Assembly (NCBI RefSeq): GCF_001678845.1
Contig: NZ_MAIQ01000001.1
Location: 85,146 to 149,145, forward strand
Reading direction: 5' to 3'
Source: Christensenella intestinihominis
GTDB taxonomy: Bacteria > Bacillota > Clostridia > Christensenellales > Christensenellaceae
Length of the DNA: 64,000 nucleotides
Shown here: piece by piece, positions 16,354 to 23,239 of the stretch
How the letters are laid out: each line of letters starts with the position of its first letter
How positions within the stretch are numbered: the stretch's first letter is position 1
Position numbers and translations under genes: made by a program
Notes under the pieces: model-generated
What the model was told of the DNA's origin: nothing
Databases searched by the model: none
What the model saw: the letters and a program-made list of their open reading frames with translations, nothing else

Positions 16354-17400
16354 ATGGATAATAAGGGAAAAGCTTTAGACGCGGCCCTCGCGCAAATCGA
16401 AAAACAGTTTGGGAAGGGCGCGGTCATGAAATTGGGCGACGCGGCAAAAAATATGAATATTGAAGCAATTCCAACGGGGTGTCTGGAACTGGATGTCGCC
16501 CTTGGAATCGGCGGCGTGCCGCGCGGAAGGATCATCGAGGTGTACGGTCCCGAGTCCTCCGGTAAAACAACCGTAGCGTTGCACATGATTGCAGAAGCGC
16601 AGAAGATGGGCGGCGCGGCGGCTTTTATTGATGCAGAGCACGCGCTTGACCCGGTTTATGCAAAAAATCTTGGGGTTGATATTGACAATCTTTACGTTTC
16701 GCAGCCCAGCACGGGCGAGGAAGCGCTTGAGATTGCAGATATGCTGACCCGCAGCGGCGCGATCGATATTGTGGTCATAGACTCGGTCGCGGCACTGGTG
16801 CCTAAATCGGAGATTGAAGGACTGATGGGTGATTCGTCGGTAGGCGTGCAGGCACGGCTTATGTCGCAGGCCCTGCGTAAGCTTGCCGGGGCGATCAATA
16901 AAACCAACACGGTTGTTGTTTTCATCAACCAGCTGCGCGAGAAAATCGGCGTGATGTTTGGAAGCCCGGAGACGACGACGGGCGGCAAGGCGCTTAAGTT
17001 CTACGCTTCCGTGCGCCTTGACGTGCGCCGCATTGAAACCATTAAGGTCGGGGACCAGATGATCGGAAACCGGACGCGTATTAAGGTTGTAAAAAACAAA
17101 GTGGCGCCGCCTTTCAAAACGGCGGAATTTGAGATTTATTATGGAGAAGGAATCAGCGAGCCGGCCAGCGTTTTGAACCTCGGGACGCAGCTTGGTCTGA
17201 TTGTCAAATCCGGGGCGTGGTTCTCGTACCAGGGCGAGCATATCGGCCAGGGGAGGGACAATGCGCGCCAGTATCTCATGGCAAACCCGGAGGTCATGGA
17301 AGAGGTTAAGCAGCAGGTGCTGAAAACCTATGGCCTCGGTAAATATAAGGATGAGGTTGCGGCGGAAGAGCCCGCAGCCGAGGGGAAAGAAAAGGAATAA
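16354..17400 (+). CDS. recA: Recombinase RecA
   Basis: RecA forms filaments on single-stranded DNA for homologous recombination and SOS induction. The 348-residue product has Walker A 'GPESSGKTT' near residue 66, the '[17 protein letters not shown]' region with loop L1, and '[17 protein letters not shown]'. The acidic C-terminal tail is standard. A GGAAAGG site precedes the ATG. I see no terminator directly after it; instead a promoter-like site and the OLE RNA begin within 40 bases. Confidence 0.98.
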
Positions 17401-17405
17401 TTATG

Positions 17406-17433
17406 TTTACCGCAGACGCGGGAAACGTATGAT
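17406..17433 (+). promoter_or_regulatory. Candidate promoter for the OLE RNA
   Basis: TTTACC at 17406-17411 and TATGAT at 17428-17433 are 16 bases apart. The predicted start near 17440 coincides with the 5' strand of the closing stem of the RNA (17439-17446), which supports both calls. Confidence 0.55.
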
Positions 17434-17438
17434 AAGTT

Positions 17439-18028
17439 TTGGTGGTGCAGTATTCTAGTCGGTACTGCCGATTCCGAAGACGGGCCTAAAAATCCGTTAT
17501 AGGGCACATCGATGAAGTTTCTGGTGTTGGCTGCTGACGCCCCGTCGGGAGCTGATGCTGGGAGTTAAGAAAGAAGGGCGATCCATAAGGGCATATGGGC
17601 GTTGACCCAGCTTTCGCGGAGACCTGTTGCGGTGGTGGCGTGCCATTACTGGACAGGGAAAAACCTGCTATGCGGTATTAAGCTGTGTACAGAGTAGCCT
17701 GCCTTGAGTTGGCATGGTGGAAATGCGGGATAATTTGCGAGTCATCTGCAGCGTACGGGCGGTGGCGAGCACGACTGTAAAAAACCATGCTGGCAAAAGA
17801 GACTAGGAATTGGATTTGTGCTGTTGAGGAAAGCTCCTAGACTGTATTTCAGGCAATAAGGGGATTATAGTGTGGTTTGAACAGGCAATCCGGTCGTGCG
17901 TGTGGTAACACCGCACCGGAGGCTTTCAAGGGAAACCGCTCCTTTCGGCGACGGGGAGTAGCCTTCGGGGAAATCCTACCGGACCATATACTGCAAGGTC
18001 TACTCTTATTGTCACCACCAATTTTTTT
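17439..18028 (+). ncRNA. ole: OLE RNA (ornate, large, extremophilic RNA)
   Basis: The gap between recA and oapA has no plausible protein gene but is rich in pairing. TTGGTGGT at 17439-17446 pairs perfectly with ACCACCAA at 18014-18021, closing a domain of about 583 nt, and seven T follow at 18022-18028. Further hairpins are 17447-17452 with 17463-17468, CTAGGA 17803-17808 with TCCTAG 17835-17840, and 17890-17894 with 17915-17919. Size, position directly before an OapA-like gene, and linkage to tlyA, nadK, argR and recN all match the known OLE class. In Bacillus halodurans OLE RNA forms a membrane-bound ribonucleoprotein needed under cold, alcohol and magnesium stress. I could not run a covariance search, so the call rests on structure and context. 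Confidence 0.87.
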
Positions 18029-18031
18029 AAT

Positions 18032-18055
18032 ATCGGCCGAAAATATTCGGCTGAT
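18032..18055 (+). promoter_or_regulatory. Hairpin between OLE RNA and oapA
   Basis: ATCGGCCG at 18032-18039 pairs with CGGCTGAT at 18048-18055 (one G-T pair) around AAAATATT. It sits between the T-run that ends the OLE RNA and the GGTGAGG ribosome binding site of oapA, so it may affect RNA processing or oapA translation. Confidence 0.5.
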
Positions 18056-18067
18056 GGTGAGGATTCG

Positions 18068-18613
18068 ATGAAAGTAATCAAGCACTGGACGATTAAGATA
18101 TTTTTTATTACGCTCTTTATTTCCGCAGGCGTTTCGGTGGCTGCGGAATATTTTATTTCCAATCTCTCGCTTTGGGCGTCCGTGGGAATTCTGGCAGCCC
18201 TGATTACGATTGGCGTGCTGTTCGATATTGTTGGCGTTGCGTTCGCCAGCTGCGACCAGGCCCCGTTTATTGCGATGTCCGCTAAAAAGAATACGAAAGC
18301 GCATTATGCGCTTAAAATGCTCAAGAATGCAGATGTGGTTTCCAATTTCTGCAATGATGTAATTGGCGACATTTGCGGGATTGTAAGCGGCGCTGCAGGA
18401 GCGGCAATCACATTAAAGGCCCTGGTGTTTGATTTTCCTTTTCCGGACCTTGTCGTGTCGATTGCAATTTCGGCATTGATTGCGGCGGCAACGGTTGCGG
18501 GAAAAGCATGGGGGAAAACAATAGCGCTCAAAAAAAACAAGGATATTGTCCTTTCCATTGGCACGGTAGTAAACTTTTTCAGCGGAGGCAGGAAGAATGA
18601 AAAAGAGAATTGA
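18068..18613 (+). CDS. oapA: OLE-associated membrane protein OapA
   Basis: The 181-residue protein is predicted to span the membrane about four times (roughly residues 9-29, 35-60, 100-120 and 126-146). Basic segments follow, near 73-88 and at the C-terminus. Length, topology and position directly behind the large structured RNA match OapA. That protein binds OLE RNA as a multimer and anchors it in the membrane. Conserved-looking features are the 'FDIVGVAFASCDQAPF' stretch and 'SNFCNDVIGDICGIVSG'. The gene overlaps tlyA by 17 bases. Without the RNA context it would be called a hypothetical membrane protein, so the two calls support each other. Confidence 0.85.
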   Translation: MKVIKHWTIKIFFITLFISAGVSVAAEYFISNLSLWASVGILAALITIGVLFDIVGVAFASCDQAPFIAMSAKKNTKAHYALKMLKNADVVSNFCNDVIGDICGIVSGAAGAAITLKALVFDFPFPDLVVSIAISALIAAATVAGKAWGKTIALKKNKDIVLSIGTVVNFFSGGRKNEKEN

Positions 18614-19382
18614 CGTACTGATTGCCGAAAAAGGCCTTGCGCAGAGCCGGGAAAAGGCCAAGACGCTGATTATCGCCGGACAGGTAAAAGCGAATGGAAA
18701 GGCAGTCAAAAGCCCGTCCGAACAATTTGAAGAGGATGCTGCGGTTGAAGTGGAAGGACATGCCTGCCCGTACGTCAGCAGGGGTGGTTTGAAGCTCGAA
18801 AAAGCGATCAAGGAATTTAATCTAAATCTGGAAAACAGGATTTGTATGGATATCGGCGCGTCAACCGGGGGCTTTACGGATTGTATGCTGCAAAACGGCG
18901 CGCAGTTTGTATATGCGGTCGACGTCGGCTATGGCCAGTTTGACTGGCGCCTGAGAAATGATGGGCGCGTAAAGCTTATGGAGCGTACGAATGCACGGTA
19001 TCTGGAAATGCAGGACCGCCCGGTTGATTTTGTAAGCGTAGACGTATCCTTTATTTCCTTGAAGCTGATTTTTCCCGCGGTTGCGCGTGTTATTGGAAAA
19101 AATGCCCGGATCGTCACCCTGATTAAACCGCAATTTGAAGCAGGCCGGGAGCACGTCGGGAAAAAAGGGGTTGTAAGGGATGCAATGGTCCACCGGGAAG
19201 TAATCCTCCGGACGATAGAAAATGCGCTTTCCAGCGGATTCTTCCTGGATGGGCTTACCTATTCGCCCGTGAAGGGACCCAACGGGAATATCGAATATCT
19301 GGCTCTTTTTTCAACAGAGCCTATTGAATACTCTCCAAGCGTTGAACAGGTTGTGGCCGATGCGCACAGTGAACTAAATTAG
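18597..19382 (+). CDS. tlyA: TlyA family rRNA 2'-O-methyltransferase
   Basis: TlyA-type proteins methylate ribose 2'-OH groups in 16S/23S rRNA and were once called hemolysins. The 261-residue product has an N-terminal S4 RNA-binding domain ('RIDVLIAEKGLAQSREKAKTLI' in parts) and a linker with 'YVSRGGLKLEKAI'. The FtsJ-like methyltransferase domain follows, with the SAM motif 'DIGASTGGFTDC' and 'VDVGYGQFDW'. It overlaps oapA and is part of the OLE-linked operon. A separate promoter lies between it and nadK. Confidence 0.92.
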   Translation: MKKRIDVLIAEKGLAQSREKAKTLIIAGQVKANGKAVKSPSEQFEEDAAVEVEGHACPYVSRGGLKLEKAIKEFNLNLENRICMDIGASTGGFTDCMLQNGAQFVYAVDVGYGQFDWRLRNDGRVKLMERTNARYLEMQDRPVDFVSVDVSFISLKLIFPAVARVIGKNARIVTLIKPQFEAGREHVGKKGVVRDAMVHREVILRTIENALSSGFFLDGLTYSPVKGPNGNIEYLALFSTEPIEYSPSVEQVVADAHSELN

Positions 19383-19446: not shown

Positions 19447-20289
19447 ATGCTGAAAATCGGTATTTATACAAATAAAGATAAGGACCCCGGCCTTGAAGCG
19501 ACGGGCAGGGTAATCGGCGCGCTTGAGACGGCGGGATGCAGTATCTGTTACGATTCGGAAACGGCCGGATTGATGGGGCTTTCCGAATATACGGACGCCG
19601 GTGAAGCGGATGCGCTTTTTATTTTGGGGGGCGACGGTACGATCCTGCGTGCAGCCCGTAAATATGTTTCATTCGGTTTGCCGATGATCGGAATCAATAT
19701 TGGCCATCTCGGATTCATGAGCGAAATTAACCTTCCCGATGTGGAACGGATGATTGACCATATTAAACGCAAAGATTATGTAATTGACGAGCGTATGCTG
19801 CTTGAAGCGAAAATCAATGGGAAAGGCCGCCCGTTTATTGCGCTCAACGATTTTATTATCACGAAAATCAACCGTACGCGCATGGTGCAGCTTGACCTTT
19901 ATGTAAATGGAACATTGGCGGAGCTTTATAACGGAGACGGGCTTATTGTAGCGACCCCCACCGGGTCAACGGCATATTCGCTTTCGGCGGGCGGCCCGAT
20001 TATTGCGCCCAATGTAAGCTGCATACTGGTTACGCCGATGTGCCCGCATTCGCTGTATGCGCGCAGCATCGTGACCAAGTACAGCGACACGATCACGGTG
20101 CGCCCGCATGAAGGAGAGAAAAATGTAACCTTTTCGGCCGACGGGCAGGAGCTGCAGTATTTAAGCGACGAAGACGAAGTTATTATCCGTCGTTCGCAAA
20201 TGAAAGCAAAATTTTTACGGTTCACAAACGATATGTTTTTCCCGCAGTTGAAAGATAAACTCGCCCAGTGGAGCGGCCCGAAGAAATAG
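19447..20289 (+). CDS. nadK: NAD kinase
   Basis: NadK phosphorylates NAD to NADP. The 280-residue protein has the 'GGDGTILRAAR' motif near residue 60, 'GINIGHLGFMSE', and the glycine-rich 'TPTGSTAYSLSAGGP' near 177, all diagnostic. The ATG follows GGAGG. The gene sits in the tlyA-nadK-argR-recN block typical of Clostridia and Bacilli, here placed behind the OLE RNA. Confidence 0.96.
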   Translation: MLKIGIYTNKDKDPGLEATGRVIGALETAGCSICYDSETAGLMGLSEYTDAGEADALFILGGDGTILRAARKYVSFGLPMIGINIGHLGFMSEINLPDVERMIDHIKRKDYVIDERMLLEAKINGKGRPFIALNDFIITKINRTRMVQLDLYVNGTLAELYNGDGLIVATPTGSTAYSLSAGGPIIAPNVSCILVTPMCPHSLYARSIVTKYSDTITVRPHEGEKNVTFSADGQELQYLSDEDEVIIRRSQMKAKFLRFTNDMFFPQLKDKLAQWSGPKK

Positions 20290-20299
20290 GAGTTTTGCC

Positions 20300-20752
20300 A
20301 TGAAATCCAAAAGACAAAATAAAATCTTAGAAATTATCGAGAACAACGAGGTAGAAACGCAGGAGGAACTTGTGGCCCTTTTGAATGAAGCCGGCTATAA
20401 GGTGACCCAGGCAACCATTTCGAGGGATATTAAAGAGCTCCATCTCATTAAGGTGCAGGCTTCATCGGGAGCGTATAAATATGCAGATAATAAGAAAAAT
20501 AAAGGAAACGACATGGATATCCTGATGCGTATCTTCCGGGATACCGTCATTTCAATTGAGAGTGCGGTCAACCTTGTCGTCATCAAAACGCTTTCCGGGA
20601 GCGCAAACGCGGCGGCGGAGGTTGTGGACAGCATGCATTACAACGGTGTGCTTGGAACGCTTGCGGGAGACAATACGATTTTTATTGCAGCGACCTCCGA
20701 GCAGGCGGCGGAAGAGATTGTGGAACGGTTTTCAAAGATGCTGAACAGATAA
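20300..20752 (+). CDS. argR: Arginine repressor ArgR/AhrC
   Basis: ArgR senses arginine and represses arginine biosynthesis genes. The 150-residue protein has the N-terminal winged helix ('RQNKILEIIENNEVETQEEL', 'VTQATISRDIKELHL') and the C-terminal hexamerisation and arginine-binding domain with 'GTLAGDNTIFIAA'. Both domains are complete. It is 10 bases after nadK and 15 before recN. Its role in this operon is probably only positional; the neighbours are not arginine genes. Confidence 0.95.
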   Translation: MKSKRQNKILEIIENNEVETQEELVALLNEAGYKVTQATISRDIKELHLIKVQASSGAYKYADNKKNKGNDMDILMRIFRDTVISIESAVNLVVIKTLSGSANAAAEVVDSMHYNGVLGTLAGDNTIFIAATSEQAAEEIVERFSKMLNR

Positions 20753-20767
20753 AGAAAGTGACGCGCA

Positions 20768-22477
20768 ATGATACAAAGCCTGACGGTGAAAAACATCGCC
20801 CTGATAGACGAATTGAATATTGAATTTGAGGCGGGGCTCAACGTCCTTTCCGGCGAAACAGGCGCGGGGAAATCGATTGTGGTTGATTCCATGAATCTTC
20901 TTTTAGGCGAGAGGGCCGACCGGGAGCTTATACGAAGCGGGCAGGAGAAAGCGCATGTTGAAGCGAGTTTCCGTATCGATTCCGCGGTTTTCGGGGATTT
21001 TTTTGCCAAAAACGAGCTTGACGCGGAGGACGAGATGATCGTATCGCGGGACCTTTCCATTTCCGGGAAAAACGTATGCCGGATTAATGGAACGGTCGTA
21101 AGCCTTACTATCCTGAAAACACTGATGGACCGAATTGTGGACCTTCACGGCCAGCACGAACACCAATCCCTGCTTTATGCAAAAAACCACCTTTCCTTCC
21201 TTGATAATTATTGCGGCGCGGAAGCGGAAAAGGCGAAGGAGCGTATCGCGCAATTATATTCACAGCTAAAGAAGGCTCAGGAGCAGCTTGATGAAACCGG
21301 CGGTGATGAAAAAGAGCGAATGCGGTCGATAGACCTCCTATCCTTTCAAATACAGGAAATTACGGAAGCACAGATTTTCGCGGGCGAGGAAGACATCCTG
21401 CGGGAAGAGCGTGAAAAGCTCAACAATGCGCAGGCAATTGCTCAGAATCTCTCCGCGGGATATGCGGAGCTTTACCTTGGCGGCGAGGAAGGCGGAAGCG
21501 CTCTTTCACTTGTCCAGGATACGGTTCGTTTGTTGTCGCAAATTTCCATGTACGACGAAGCATATGAAAAAACAGGGGAGCGGCTTCAGGAAAGCGCCTT
21601 TGTCTTGGAGGAGTGCGCACACGATTTGCGCAGCTTTTTGGAAGCGGTGGTGTTTGACGAACACAGGCAGGCTGAAATCGAAGAGCGGATTGACCTGATT
21701 GCCGGTTTGAAACGGAAGTATGGAAACTCGGAGGACGAGATTCTGGCTTTTTGCGCGGAGGCGCAGCAAAAGCTTGAGAAGCTGCAAAACGCAGACGCGG
21801 ACGCTGCGCGTCTGGCTGGTGAAATCGAAACGATCAAAGGGCGGTTATATAAGGAATACCAGGCCCTGTCGGGGTTGCGTAAAAAAGCGGCGGAAAAGCT
21901 TTCCGGCGCGGTGCTGAAGGAGCTTTCCGATCTTGGAATGCCGGGAGCGAAGTTTGAAGCGCATTTTGCGCCTTTGCCCGAACCGGAAAAGGCCATTTGG
22001 CGTAAGGATGGAATTGATGAAATGGAGTTCTATCTTTCGACCAATGAAGGGGAACCGGTGAAGCCTCTTTCCAAAACCGCCTCCGGCGGGGAAATATCAA
22101 GGGTAATGCTGGCGTTTAAAAACATATCGGCGGGACTGGAGGATATTTCCACCCTTATTTTTGATGAGATCGATACCGGAATCAGCGGGCGCATGGCCCT
22201 TGTCGTTTCCGAGAAAATGGCTTCCATTTCGCGGTCTCGGCAGGTAATCTGCGTAACCCATTTGCCGCAAATAGCAGCAATGGCGGATGCGAATTTCCTG
22301 ATTCGCAAATATTCCGCGGAGGGAACGACGCATACGGCGGTCACCCGGCTTGAAGGAGCCGATGTGACGGATGAAATTGCACGCCTTGCAGGAGGAATTG
22401 AAACCGAAAACTCCCGAATCTATGCAGGAGAGCTGCGCCAAAATGCGGAGAAGATTAAAGAAGCATTCGGCAGGTAA
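20768..22477 (+). CDS. recN: DNA repair protein RecN
   Basis: RecN is an SMC-like ATPase acting at double-strand breaks. The 569-residue protein has Walker A 'GETGAGKSI' near residue 32, 'DLHGQHEHQSLL' near 127, central coiled coils (about 155-350), and a C-terminal half with the ABC signature 'TASGGEISRVMLAFK' and Walker B 'LIFDEIDTGISG'. It directly follows argR. In many sporeformers spoIVB follows recN; here the next gene is spo0A. Confidence 0.96.
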   Translation: MIQSLTVKNIALIDELNIEFEAGLNVLSGETGAGKSIVVDSMNLLLGERADRELIRSGQEKAHVEASFRIDSAVFGDFFAKNELDAEDEMIVSRDLSISGKNVCRINGTVVSLTILKTLMDRIVDLHGQHEHQSLLYAKNHLSFLDNYCGAEAEKAKERIAQLYSQLKKAQEQLDETGGDEKERMRSIDLLSFQIQEITEAQIFAGEEDILREEREKLNNAQAIAQNLSAGYAELYLGGEEGGSALSLVQDTVRLLSQISMYDEAYEKTGERLQESAFVLEECAHDLRSFLEAVVFDEHRQAEIEERIDLIAGLKRKYGNSEDEILAFCAEAQQKLEKLQNADADAARLAGEIETIKGRLYKEYQALSGLRKKAAEKLSGAVLKELSDLGMPGAKFEAHFAPLPEPEKAIWRKDGIDEMEFYLSTNEGEPVKPLSKTASGGEISRVMLAFKNISAGLEDISTLIFDEIDTGISGRMALVVSEKMASISRSRQVICVTHLPQIAAMADANFLIRKYSAEGTTHTAVTRLEGADVTDEIARLAGGIETENSRIYAGELRQNAEKIKEAFGR

Positions 22478-22492: not shown

Positions 22493-23239
22493 TTGGCAAG
22501 GTTCGAACGCGTATTAATCGCTGAACAGAGCGGTGATTACGCAGGAAAAATTAAGGGGATGCTCCGGGAGGAAGCGGCATCTTTTTTATGCACGACGGAT
22601 GGCGGGGAAGCGCTGGAACTGTATGACAGGTATCACCCTGATTTGGTTCTTGCCGAGGCGATCCTGCCCGGCCAGGATGGGTTTGCGCTGATGGAACACA
22701 TGCTCCCGGATAAAGATGTGGTCAAGATTATCCTGACCGCAATGAATCAGGAGCTTATCATCAAAAAAGCATTCGAACTGGAAGCCGCATATGTTATCGT
22801 AAAGCCGTACGTAAAAAAATATTTCGTACAGCGAGTCCTCGAGGCGGCAAATGCCCAGAAAAAGCGGAGGGACATCCGCACGGAAAGCGACCAGCTGCTT
22901 GCGGGAAAAATATCCATTGCGCTGAAGCGGCTGGGAATCCCGGCGAATATCAAAGGGTATAAACTGCTGCGCGAGGCGTTGCTGGCCGTTTGTATGGAAC
23001 CGGGAAAAATGCGTCCGCTCAAACAGAATATTTATATGCCGCTGGCGGAAAGATACGGCTCAACAATCAAATGTGTGGAGCGGAATATCAGGCATGCGAT
23101 AGAAACGGCCGCCATACGGTGCGATACGGAAGCATTTTACGAATACTTCGGCTATACGATCAGCCCGGAAAAGGGGAAACCCACGAACAGTGAATTTATT
23201 GCAACGCTTGCGGAAAAAATACTTTCACGGCATGGGTAA
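22493..23239 (+). CDS. spo0A: Spo0A-like response regulator with altered phosphoacceptor site
   Basis: Spo0A is the master regulator of sporulation and stationary phase. The C-terminal DNA-binding domain (about 140-248) is well kept, with 'LGIPANIKGYKLLREAL', 'ERNIRHAIETA' and 'GKPTNSEFIA'. The N-terminal receiver is degenerate. The usual acidic pair is 'AEQ' (residues 10-12), and the phosphorylated Asp is Glu55 in 'DLVLAEAILPGQDG'. Thr82 and Lys104 remain. Glu at this site often mimics phosphorylation, so the protein may be constitutively active or no longer controlled by a phosphorelay. It starts with TTG behind CGGAGG. Last clear member of the OLE-linked gene block. Confidence 0.92.
   Translation: MARFERVLIAEQSGDYAGKIKGMLREEAASFLCTTDGGEALELYDRYHPDLVLAEAILPGQDGFALMEHMLPDKDVVKIILTAMNQELIIKKAFELEAAYVIVKPYVKKYFVQRVLEAANAQKKRRDIRTESDQLLAGKISIALKRLGIPANIKGYKLLREALLAVCMEPGKMRPLKQNIYMPLAERYGSTIKCVERNIRHAIETAAIRCDTEAFYEYFGYTISPEKGKPTNSEFIATLAEKILSRHG

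Follow-up and report, generated by a model that had tools for sequence, protein, structure and literature searches.

A complete OLE–OapA locus in Christensenella intestinihominis with a possibly uncommon set of loop changes

Few bacterial RNAs without an established biochemical function are as large as OLE. To our knowledge, no biochemical activity of OLE has been established in any species, so that any account of its mechanism has to be inferred. A 64,000-nucleotide stretch of the Christensenella intestinihominis genome (the window) contains a gap between recA and a small membrane protein gene, and a preliminary description of the locus proposed that an OLE RNA with its membrane partner OapA lies there, between recA and tlyA. 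We asked whether this is so, whether the pair is likely to be a working one, and whether it departs in any way from other OLE loci. Coordinates are those of the window; the RNA elements, the promoter-like site and the genes from recA to recN all lie on the plus strand.

The gap, earlier put at 0.67 kb, is real: 667 bases separate the end of recA at 17400 from the start of oapA at 18068. An antisense frame of 151 codons over part of it is without support as a gene. An Rfam scan of the whole window, which included the covariance-model search of the gap proposed earlier, gave a match to OLE (RF01071) at 17426–18034 with 449.9 bits (E = 7.6e-129), compared with a gathering score of 50 bits for the family. 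The match is untruncated, running end to end over model positions 1–616 of 616, and covers 609 nt with the closing ends of P1, in accordance with the predicted RNA length of about 600 nt. No RF01071 match was found in 14 control genomes. We took these bounds as those of the OLE RNA gene (17426–18034), a gene that covariation also supports, with the outer arms of P1 at 17439–17446 and 18014–18021. Stems P7, P8 and P9 are all present, the loop of one of them being 9 nt shorter than in the model. In the available parts of PMC11332333, variants 1 and 2 of OLE are those in which P7 and P8 are shortened or missing; judged on the Rfam match, the window OLE is of the full-length class and is neither variant. 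The 390-bit threshold given there belongs to a different model and was not used for the window RNA.

The fold was analyzed in an alignment of 37 OLEs, one from the window, five from further Christensenella and 31 from genomes elsewhere in the order; locus L095 was excluded for its runs of N. The tested structure of 171 pairs was the Rfam structure, whose structure line omits P1–P3, together with P1, P2 and P3 as placed by us. The perfect 8-bp pairing of the two ends noted in the preliminary description is exact in the window (17439–17446 with 18014–18021). Across the alignment 86.5% of P1 cells are paired and four of the eight pairs show changes on both sides; the two outermost pairs are each unpaired in 17 of the 37 sequences, so that about 6 bp of the helix are conserved. 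The 5' arms of P2 and P3 (17447–17458) pair with the 3' arms (17837–17845), 17447–17450 with 17842–17845 and 17454–17458 with 17837–17841, and 95.3% and 100% of their cells, respectively, are paired, with both-side changes in three of nine pairs. A different placement of P3 (17453–17460 with 17801–17808) conflicts with P9 and was rejected in favor of the supported one. Taken together, the 17 pairs of P1–P3 are paired in 92.5% of cells, seven of them with both-side changes, and have a covariation score of 0.149 compared with 0.094 in shuffles (0/500 as high); their 15 further pair types are not in excess over shuffles (89/500 as high).

Over the complete structure, 87.5% of cells are paired, compared with 74.9% after shuffling and 38–47% when the partners were slid. 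Both-side changes occur in 119 of the 171 pairs, a number reached in 0/500 shuffles, and the covariation score is 0.430; shuffling lowers it to 0.191, and sliding the partners to 0.121 or less. The several internal hairpins proposed earlier are recovered as well, by this covariation and by the window itself, which forms standard pairs at 142 of the 154 Rfam pairs for which it has letters. The exception is distal P9, where only 42.4% and 40.7% of cells are paired (helices 15 and 16); we read this as poor alignment of a variable arm, and single-strand folding of the P9 arm gave no consistent apical loop. Among the six rows of the genus, 118 of the 171 pairs are invariant; in the pairs that vary, 24 types change on both sides, 29 on one side and 41 break the pair. 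The pair-breaking types (21 in distal P9 and 20 elsewhere) were counted against the reading of a working OLE. Overall, the covariation predicts that the window RNA folds like other OLE RNAs.

The gene directly downstream, oapA (18068–18613), encodes a protein of 181 residues that we assign to OapA (OLE-associated membrane protein A) from its hydropathy, its DxxxD motif and its alignment with relatives. Grouping by eye gave about four hydropathy peaks, centered near residues 17, 50, 111 and 136, which would fit the four-span membrane protein described earlier. The protein matched no Pfam or NCBIfam family at E 0.001, and neither collection provided an OapA profile. A search of a genome-contig collection for relatives confirmed 290 of 384 candidate stretches, of which 80 were kept, and 82 proteins were aligned (the window protein and 81 chosen from 100 usable ones). 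Residues D53, D97, G100, D101, G108, G145, K146 and K150 are invariant in this alignment. D97 and D101 form the DxxxD motif, which is described in the available parts of PMC11332333 as distinctive of OapA and absent from CNNM domains; the motif and the alignment with 81 other OapA proteins sustain the earlier identification. The nearest named relatives are those of Christensenella hongkongensis and Christensenella sp. Marseille-P2438 (90% and 92% identity, respectively, in the search for relatives). In the alignment, identity to two named Christensenella proteins is 89–91% and to proteins outside Christensenella 32–61%. In its roughly four putative hydrophobic spans, its DxxxD motif and its position adjoining OLE the protein resembles known OapA, with no notable difference. 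It shares with the CNNM/MpfA (CorC) transporters a weak match to the CNNM profile; however, this match (17.8 bits) falls short of the cut-off of 28.4 bits, a protein of 181 residues is too short to hold CBS and CorC domains as well, and DxxxD is present. The genome encodes a separate CNNM protein of 459 aa that is above the cut-off.

Family models confirmed all four genes whose linkage to OLE had been pointed out: a tlyA family rRNA methyltransferase gene at 18597–19382, overlapping the end of oapA (TIGR00478, 268 bits), nadK at 19447–20289 (PF20143, 121.5 bits), argR at 20300–20752 (NF001680, 192.8 bits, cut-off 184) and recN at 20768–22477 (TIGR00634, 506.1 bits). The upstream neighbor, an open frame at 16354–17400 that is also found 5' of OLE in relatives, is taken to be recA from its naming in the preliminary description and from its sequence. 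Genes rimO and pgsA lie upstream of the block, which is closed after recN by a spo0A-like gene (22493–23239; Spo0A_C, 104.8 bits) that scored 155.5 with the NCBIfam Spo0A model, below its cut-off of 200. Spo0A_C matches number two in each of the six Christensenella genomes, and at least one is found in 13 of 18 genomes of the family.

The other two partner proteins were found elsewhere in the genome (3.03 Mb, 99.94% complete). The OapB orthologue has 94 aa (PDB 7k9b, E 1e-8); its flanking genes are, judged by their sequences, presumably map and infA. The OapC/YbxF orthologue has 83 aa, lies upstream of rpsL (3v7e, E 3.9e-10) and retains the glycine at position 15 that PMC9723947, in the parts available, reports to be universally conserved. 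According to the accessible portion of PMC11332333, roughly 60% of OLE species have OapB and roughly 45% have OapC. The whole-model Rfam match and the covariation of the RNA, the assignment of OapA, the order of the genes and the oapB and oapC orthologues lead us to identify the locus as almost certainly a working OLE–OapA pair in Christensenella. The locus is a complete and ordinary OLE–OapA, a member of the known family and not a new kind.

Set beside the OLE RNAs known from work on Halalkalibacterium halodurans, Clostridium acetobutylicum and C. botulinum, the window OLE is alike in its full covariance match, its P1–P15 region, oapA directly 3', an A-rich L4 loop, a k-turn region and conserved P13, and differs in loops L5 (GCCCC), L6 (AGGGCA) and L9.3 (CGUACG). 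Two differences in gene order set it apart from other OLE loci. First, recA is directly upstream, as in only four of 80 loci from the contig collection (three Christensenella and L005 of family f5, whose OapA is identical to that of L121) and in five of 30 loci of the order represented by short stretches (L098–L127). Second, there is no dxs between oapA and tlyA; oapA and tlyA are spaced by about 1.9 kb in many other hosts, and the spacer is dxs in both loci in which the gene was scanned (L009 and L060). In Caloramator australicus (L060:4941-7391), oapA and dxs occupy one frame of 817 codons, in which residue 203 is the first of the DXP synthase domain. In this draft genome the two genes thus appear to be fused (OapA–Dxs).

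Next, we considered how the RNA is transcribed. The promoter earlier placed at the start of OLE does exist as a promoter-like site (TTTACC-16-TATGAT, 17406–17433), although it is weak and is not conserved in the genus. It is one of three such sites in the 1.6 kb scanned, where shuffled sequence gave 1.1 on average. Within 40 nt before P1, a –10-like box matching at least five of six positions is found in the genus only in the window (TATGAT) and in L093 (TAGAAT, 8 nt further up), and a conserved dedicated promoter in Christensenella is not supported, these two boxes standing at different places. Among the 82 of 107 OLEs with enough upstream sequence, such boxes were found in 46 at 2–16 nt and in 29 at 16–30 nt before P1, compared with 13, 15 and 19 for three intervals more distant from P1; from this enrichment just 5' of P1, many OLE genes seem to be served by a promoter of their own. 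In Christensenella, read-through from recA followed by processing would be at least as likely as an own promoter.

The same arrangement invites a reading in which the structured gap serves oapA–tlyA as a cis-regulatory leader and is not a free-standing RNA: it lies directly 5' of oapA, and in three genus members (L090, L092 and L094) the recA stop codon ends only 8–13 nt before P1, which fits one long transcript. However, published work treats OLE as an RNA class in its own right, with partners of its own; the fold is maintained along the whole length; and the Rfam scan of the window matched no leader family in the gap. We regard a leader as very improbable.

To examine how widespread the locus is, we searched related genomes. 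OLE with adjoining oapA was present in all six Christensenella genomes, and OLE was present in seven of 18 genomes of the family, with no match in genera g2, g3 and g4 (10 genomes), and in 176 of 396 sampled genomes of the order (71 of 142 genera). The absences show that OLE can be lost, and together with the lack of a conserved dedicated promoter in the genus they could be taken to mean that the window OLE is a decaying remnant, retained through its linkage to recA and tlyA. Against this stand the complete model match, compensatory changes inside the genus, intact oapA, oapB and oapC orthologues and the occurrence of OLE in 6/6 genomes of the genus, which make decay highly unlikely. The preliminary description valued the locus as a new host. 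Our literature search found no paper joining OLE RNA with Christensenella; however, PMC11332333, as far as its text was available, covered all GTDB R214 genomes, so the host is probably already within that list, and OLE is common in the order, which makes the claim doubtful. An anticorrelation of OLE with MpfA, reported in the same available text, was not seen inside the family, where CNNM exceeded the cut-off in six of seven genomes with OLE and nine of 11 without. This and the unconserved promoter, too, were counted against the reading of a working OLE.

Unusual forms of the RNA in the order did not withstand inspection. A longer OLE of 789 nt in genus g5 (L095) was rejected, since the added length consists of runs of N in the record. 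Split or duplicated OLEs in nine genomes of the order with weak or multiple matches were likewise rejected: of their 17 matches, one is complete, and the 11 main partial matches, taken together with five small neighboring pieces, all extend to within 70 nt of a contig end, consistent with broken assemblies. OLE genes of eight metagenome genomes of the order (L129–L139) are cut at contig ends. It is as if assemblies tend to break inside OLE, and absence in such genomes needs care. In 11 loci with an unclear OLE or an odd label, Rfam found OLE in all 11, two of them cut by a contig end.

How the pair might work can be outlined from published work on other species. OLE RNA would dimerize through L4, L5–L6 and L9.3, with OapA holding it at the membrane, OapC bound at the k-turn near P5 and OapB at P13. 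The resulting membrane ribonucleoprotein would adjust ion (Mg2+) and energy homeostasis under stress. OapA, as a CNNM-like membrane protein, would most likely be the working part, its activity being scaffolded or gated by the RNA; that OLE RNA controls ion handling by OapA is our own suggestion, which we hold at about even odds. A full-length OLE whose genome encodes all three partner proteins known to be essential, and whose genus has strains in culture, offers a place outside the alkaliphile model to ask what OLE does.

We then turned to the loops through which OLE is thought to dimerize. In the available parts of PMC12286853, PMC12265935 and PMC12191101, the dimer is held by L4–L4, by L5–L6 between chains (bridge B2) and by a self-complementary L9.3 (bridge B3), with L7 forming part of B2 in two of the three accounts. 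PMC12286853, in the parts available, reports B1 as conserved and B3 as covarying (GGCC, GAUC and AGCU), and covariation of B2 is not mentioned there. The loops called L5, L6 and L9.3 here are our assignment from the order of stems. They were compared in 107 OLEs (37 from the order and 70 of the 80 contig-collection loci, four having been skipped as duplicates or for N and six not extracted), a set in which a few rows are one genome entered twice. L5 (17539–17543) is GCCCC in the window and the other five Christensenella and GCCCA in the remaining 101 of 107. L6 (17588–17593) is AGGGCA in the same six Christensenella, and elsewhere in the set AUGGCA (65), AAGGCA (19) or ACGGCA (17); AGGGCA also occurs in L095. 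L9.3 (17752–17757) carries the palindrome CGUACG. A search for the L5 pattern with a last base other than A returned six of 396 genomes of the order, all six being Christensenella (with any last base, the pattern fits 37/37 OLEs of the order and 71/107 overall). A looser pattern that fits 99/107 OLEs returned three genomes, all Christensenella, of 391 in a sample of the class, the denominator being genomes sampled and not OLE carriers.

For L9.3, 98 of the 101 readable rows have a 4-nt palindrome no more than 3 nt from the aligned apex, compared with 26–36% at six places 7–12 nt away; six of the 107 rows were misaligned, and since the palindrome picked is sometimes a neighbor of GGCC, only the total was used. 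The palindrome is absent in three rows (L124, L128 and L046). GUAC is found in the six rows of the genus and, as a separate case, in L031, a relative of which (L025) carries GGCC; UGCA is found in L105. Neither GUAC nor UGCA is among the palindromes listed in the available text of PMC12286853. The sequence comparison thus supports B3.

The states of the nearest relatives suggest an order of change. In genus g5 of the family (L095), L5 is GCCCA, L6 is AGGGCA and L9.3 is GCGUACGG; in L121, a member of the family closest to this one in the OapA tree, they are GCCCA, AUGGCA and GGCC. By parsimony, L6 and L9.3 would have changed first and L5 later. In bare duplex calculations, the G in L6 gives four pairs (GCCC with GGGC) instead of three, at –8.6 compared with –5.1 to –5.4 kcal/mol; changing L5 alone gives –5.1 and changing L6 alone (GCCCA with AGGGCA) –9.1 kcal/mol. 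The L6 change is thus predicted to strengthen the L5–L6 contact. The two loops do not form a compensatory pair of the classical kind, and a constraint relaxed after the change in L6 may account for the one in L5. A compensatory replacement of an A–U by a C–G pair between L5 and L6 was rejected, as L095 has A with G; the register it implies is also mismatched in 36 of the other 101 OLEs, and a GCC/GGC register, one pair longer here, fits better.

We judge it slightly more probable than not that all these changes are neutral drift in one lineage, uninformative on dimerization, in an OLE that is ordinary throughout. They are confined to a single lineage; L5 and L6 changed at separate steps, as L095 has the new L6 with the old L5; no pairing is gained from L5, as the calculated energies indicate; and L6 position 2 is U, A or C among the other 101 OLEs. 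Drift accounts less readily for an L5 that is uniform in all those 101, for a G never seen at their L6 position 2 that makes GCCC and GGGC fully complementary, and for the concentration of palindromes at L9.3. The competing reading is a stepwise rewired dimer interface in the Christensenellaceae, in which the L6 G and L9.3 CGUACG arose in the common ancestor of Christensenella and g5, followed by A to C in L5 in Christensenella alone; this is a tentative proposal that we place a little short of an even chance. For B2, the L5–L6 changes are suggestive and, coming from one lineage, statistically indistinguishable from drift. If stepwise rewiring is true, it would be evidence from natural variation for the L5–L6 bridge, and the Christensenella OLE would dimerize with itself in preference to canonical OLE; if the loop changes reflect co-evolution of the interface, they would be a natural test of whether the cryo-EM dimer is used in cells. 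The set of loop changes may in any case be a novelty and an uncommon feature of the window OLE.

The searches also returned further loci of interest. Four metagenome genomes labelled Actinomycetota have a full OLE with 461.6–490.2 bits (L018:4367-5534, L028:467-1628, L059:4353-5531 and L063:4361-5534). Their OapA proteins form one clade (support 100/99) with 61–77% mutual identity, and tlyA, argR and recN gave no match near their OLE. The GC content of the four stretches is only 29.6–42.8%, low for Actinomycetota, and the label is possibly mistaken; were it correct, these genomes would represent an OLE lineage outside Bacillota. In one genome from a sheep/deer gut metagenome (JAFTJA01), two contigs (L056:4279-4913 and L057:300-934) each carry OLE, oapA, tlyA and nadK in the same order, representing either mixed strains or a duplicated locus.
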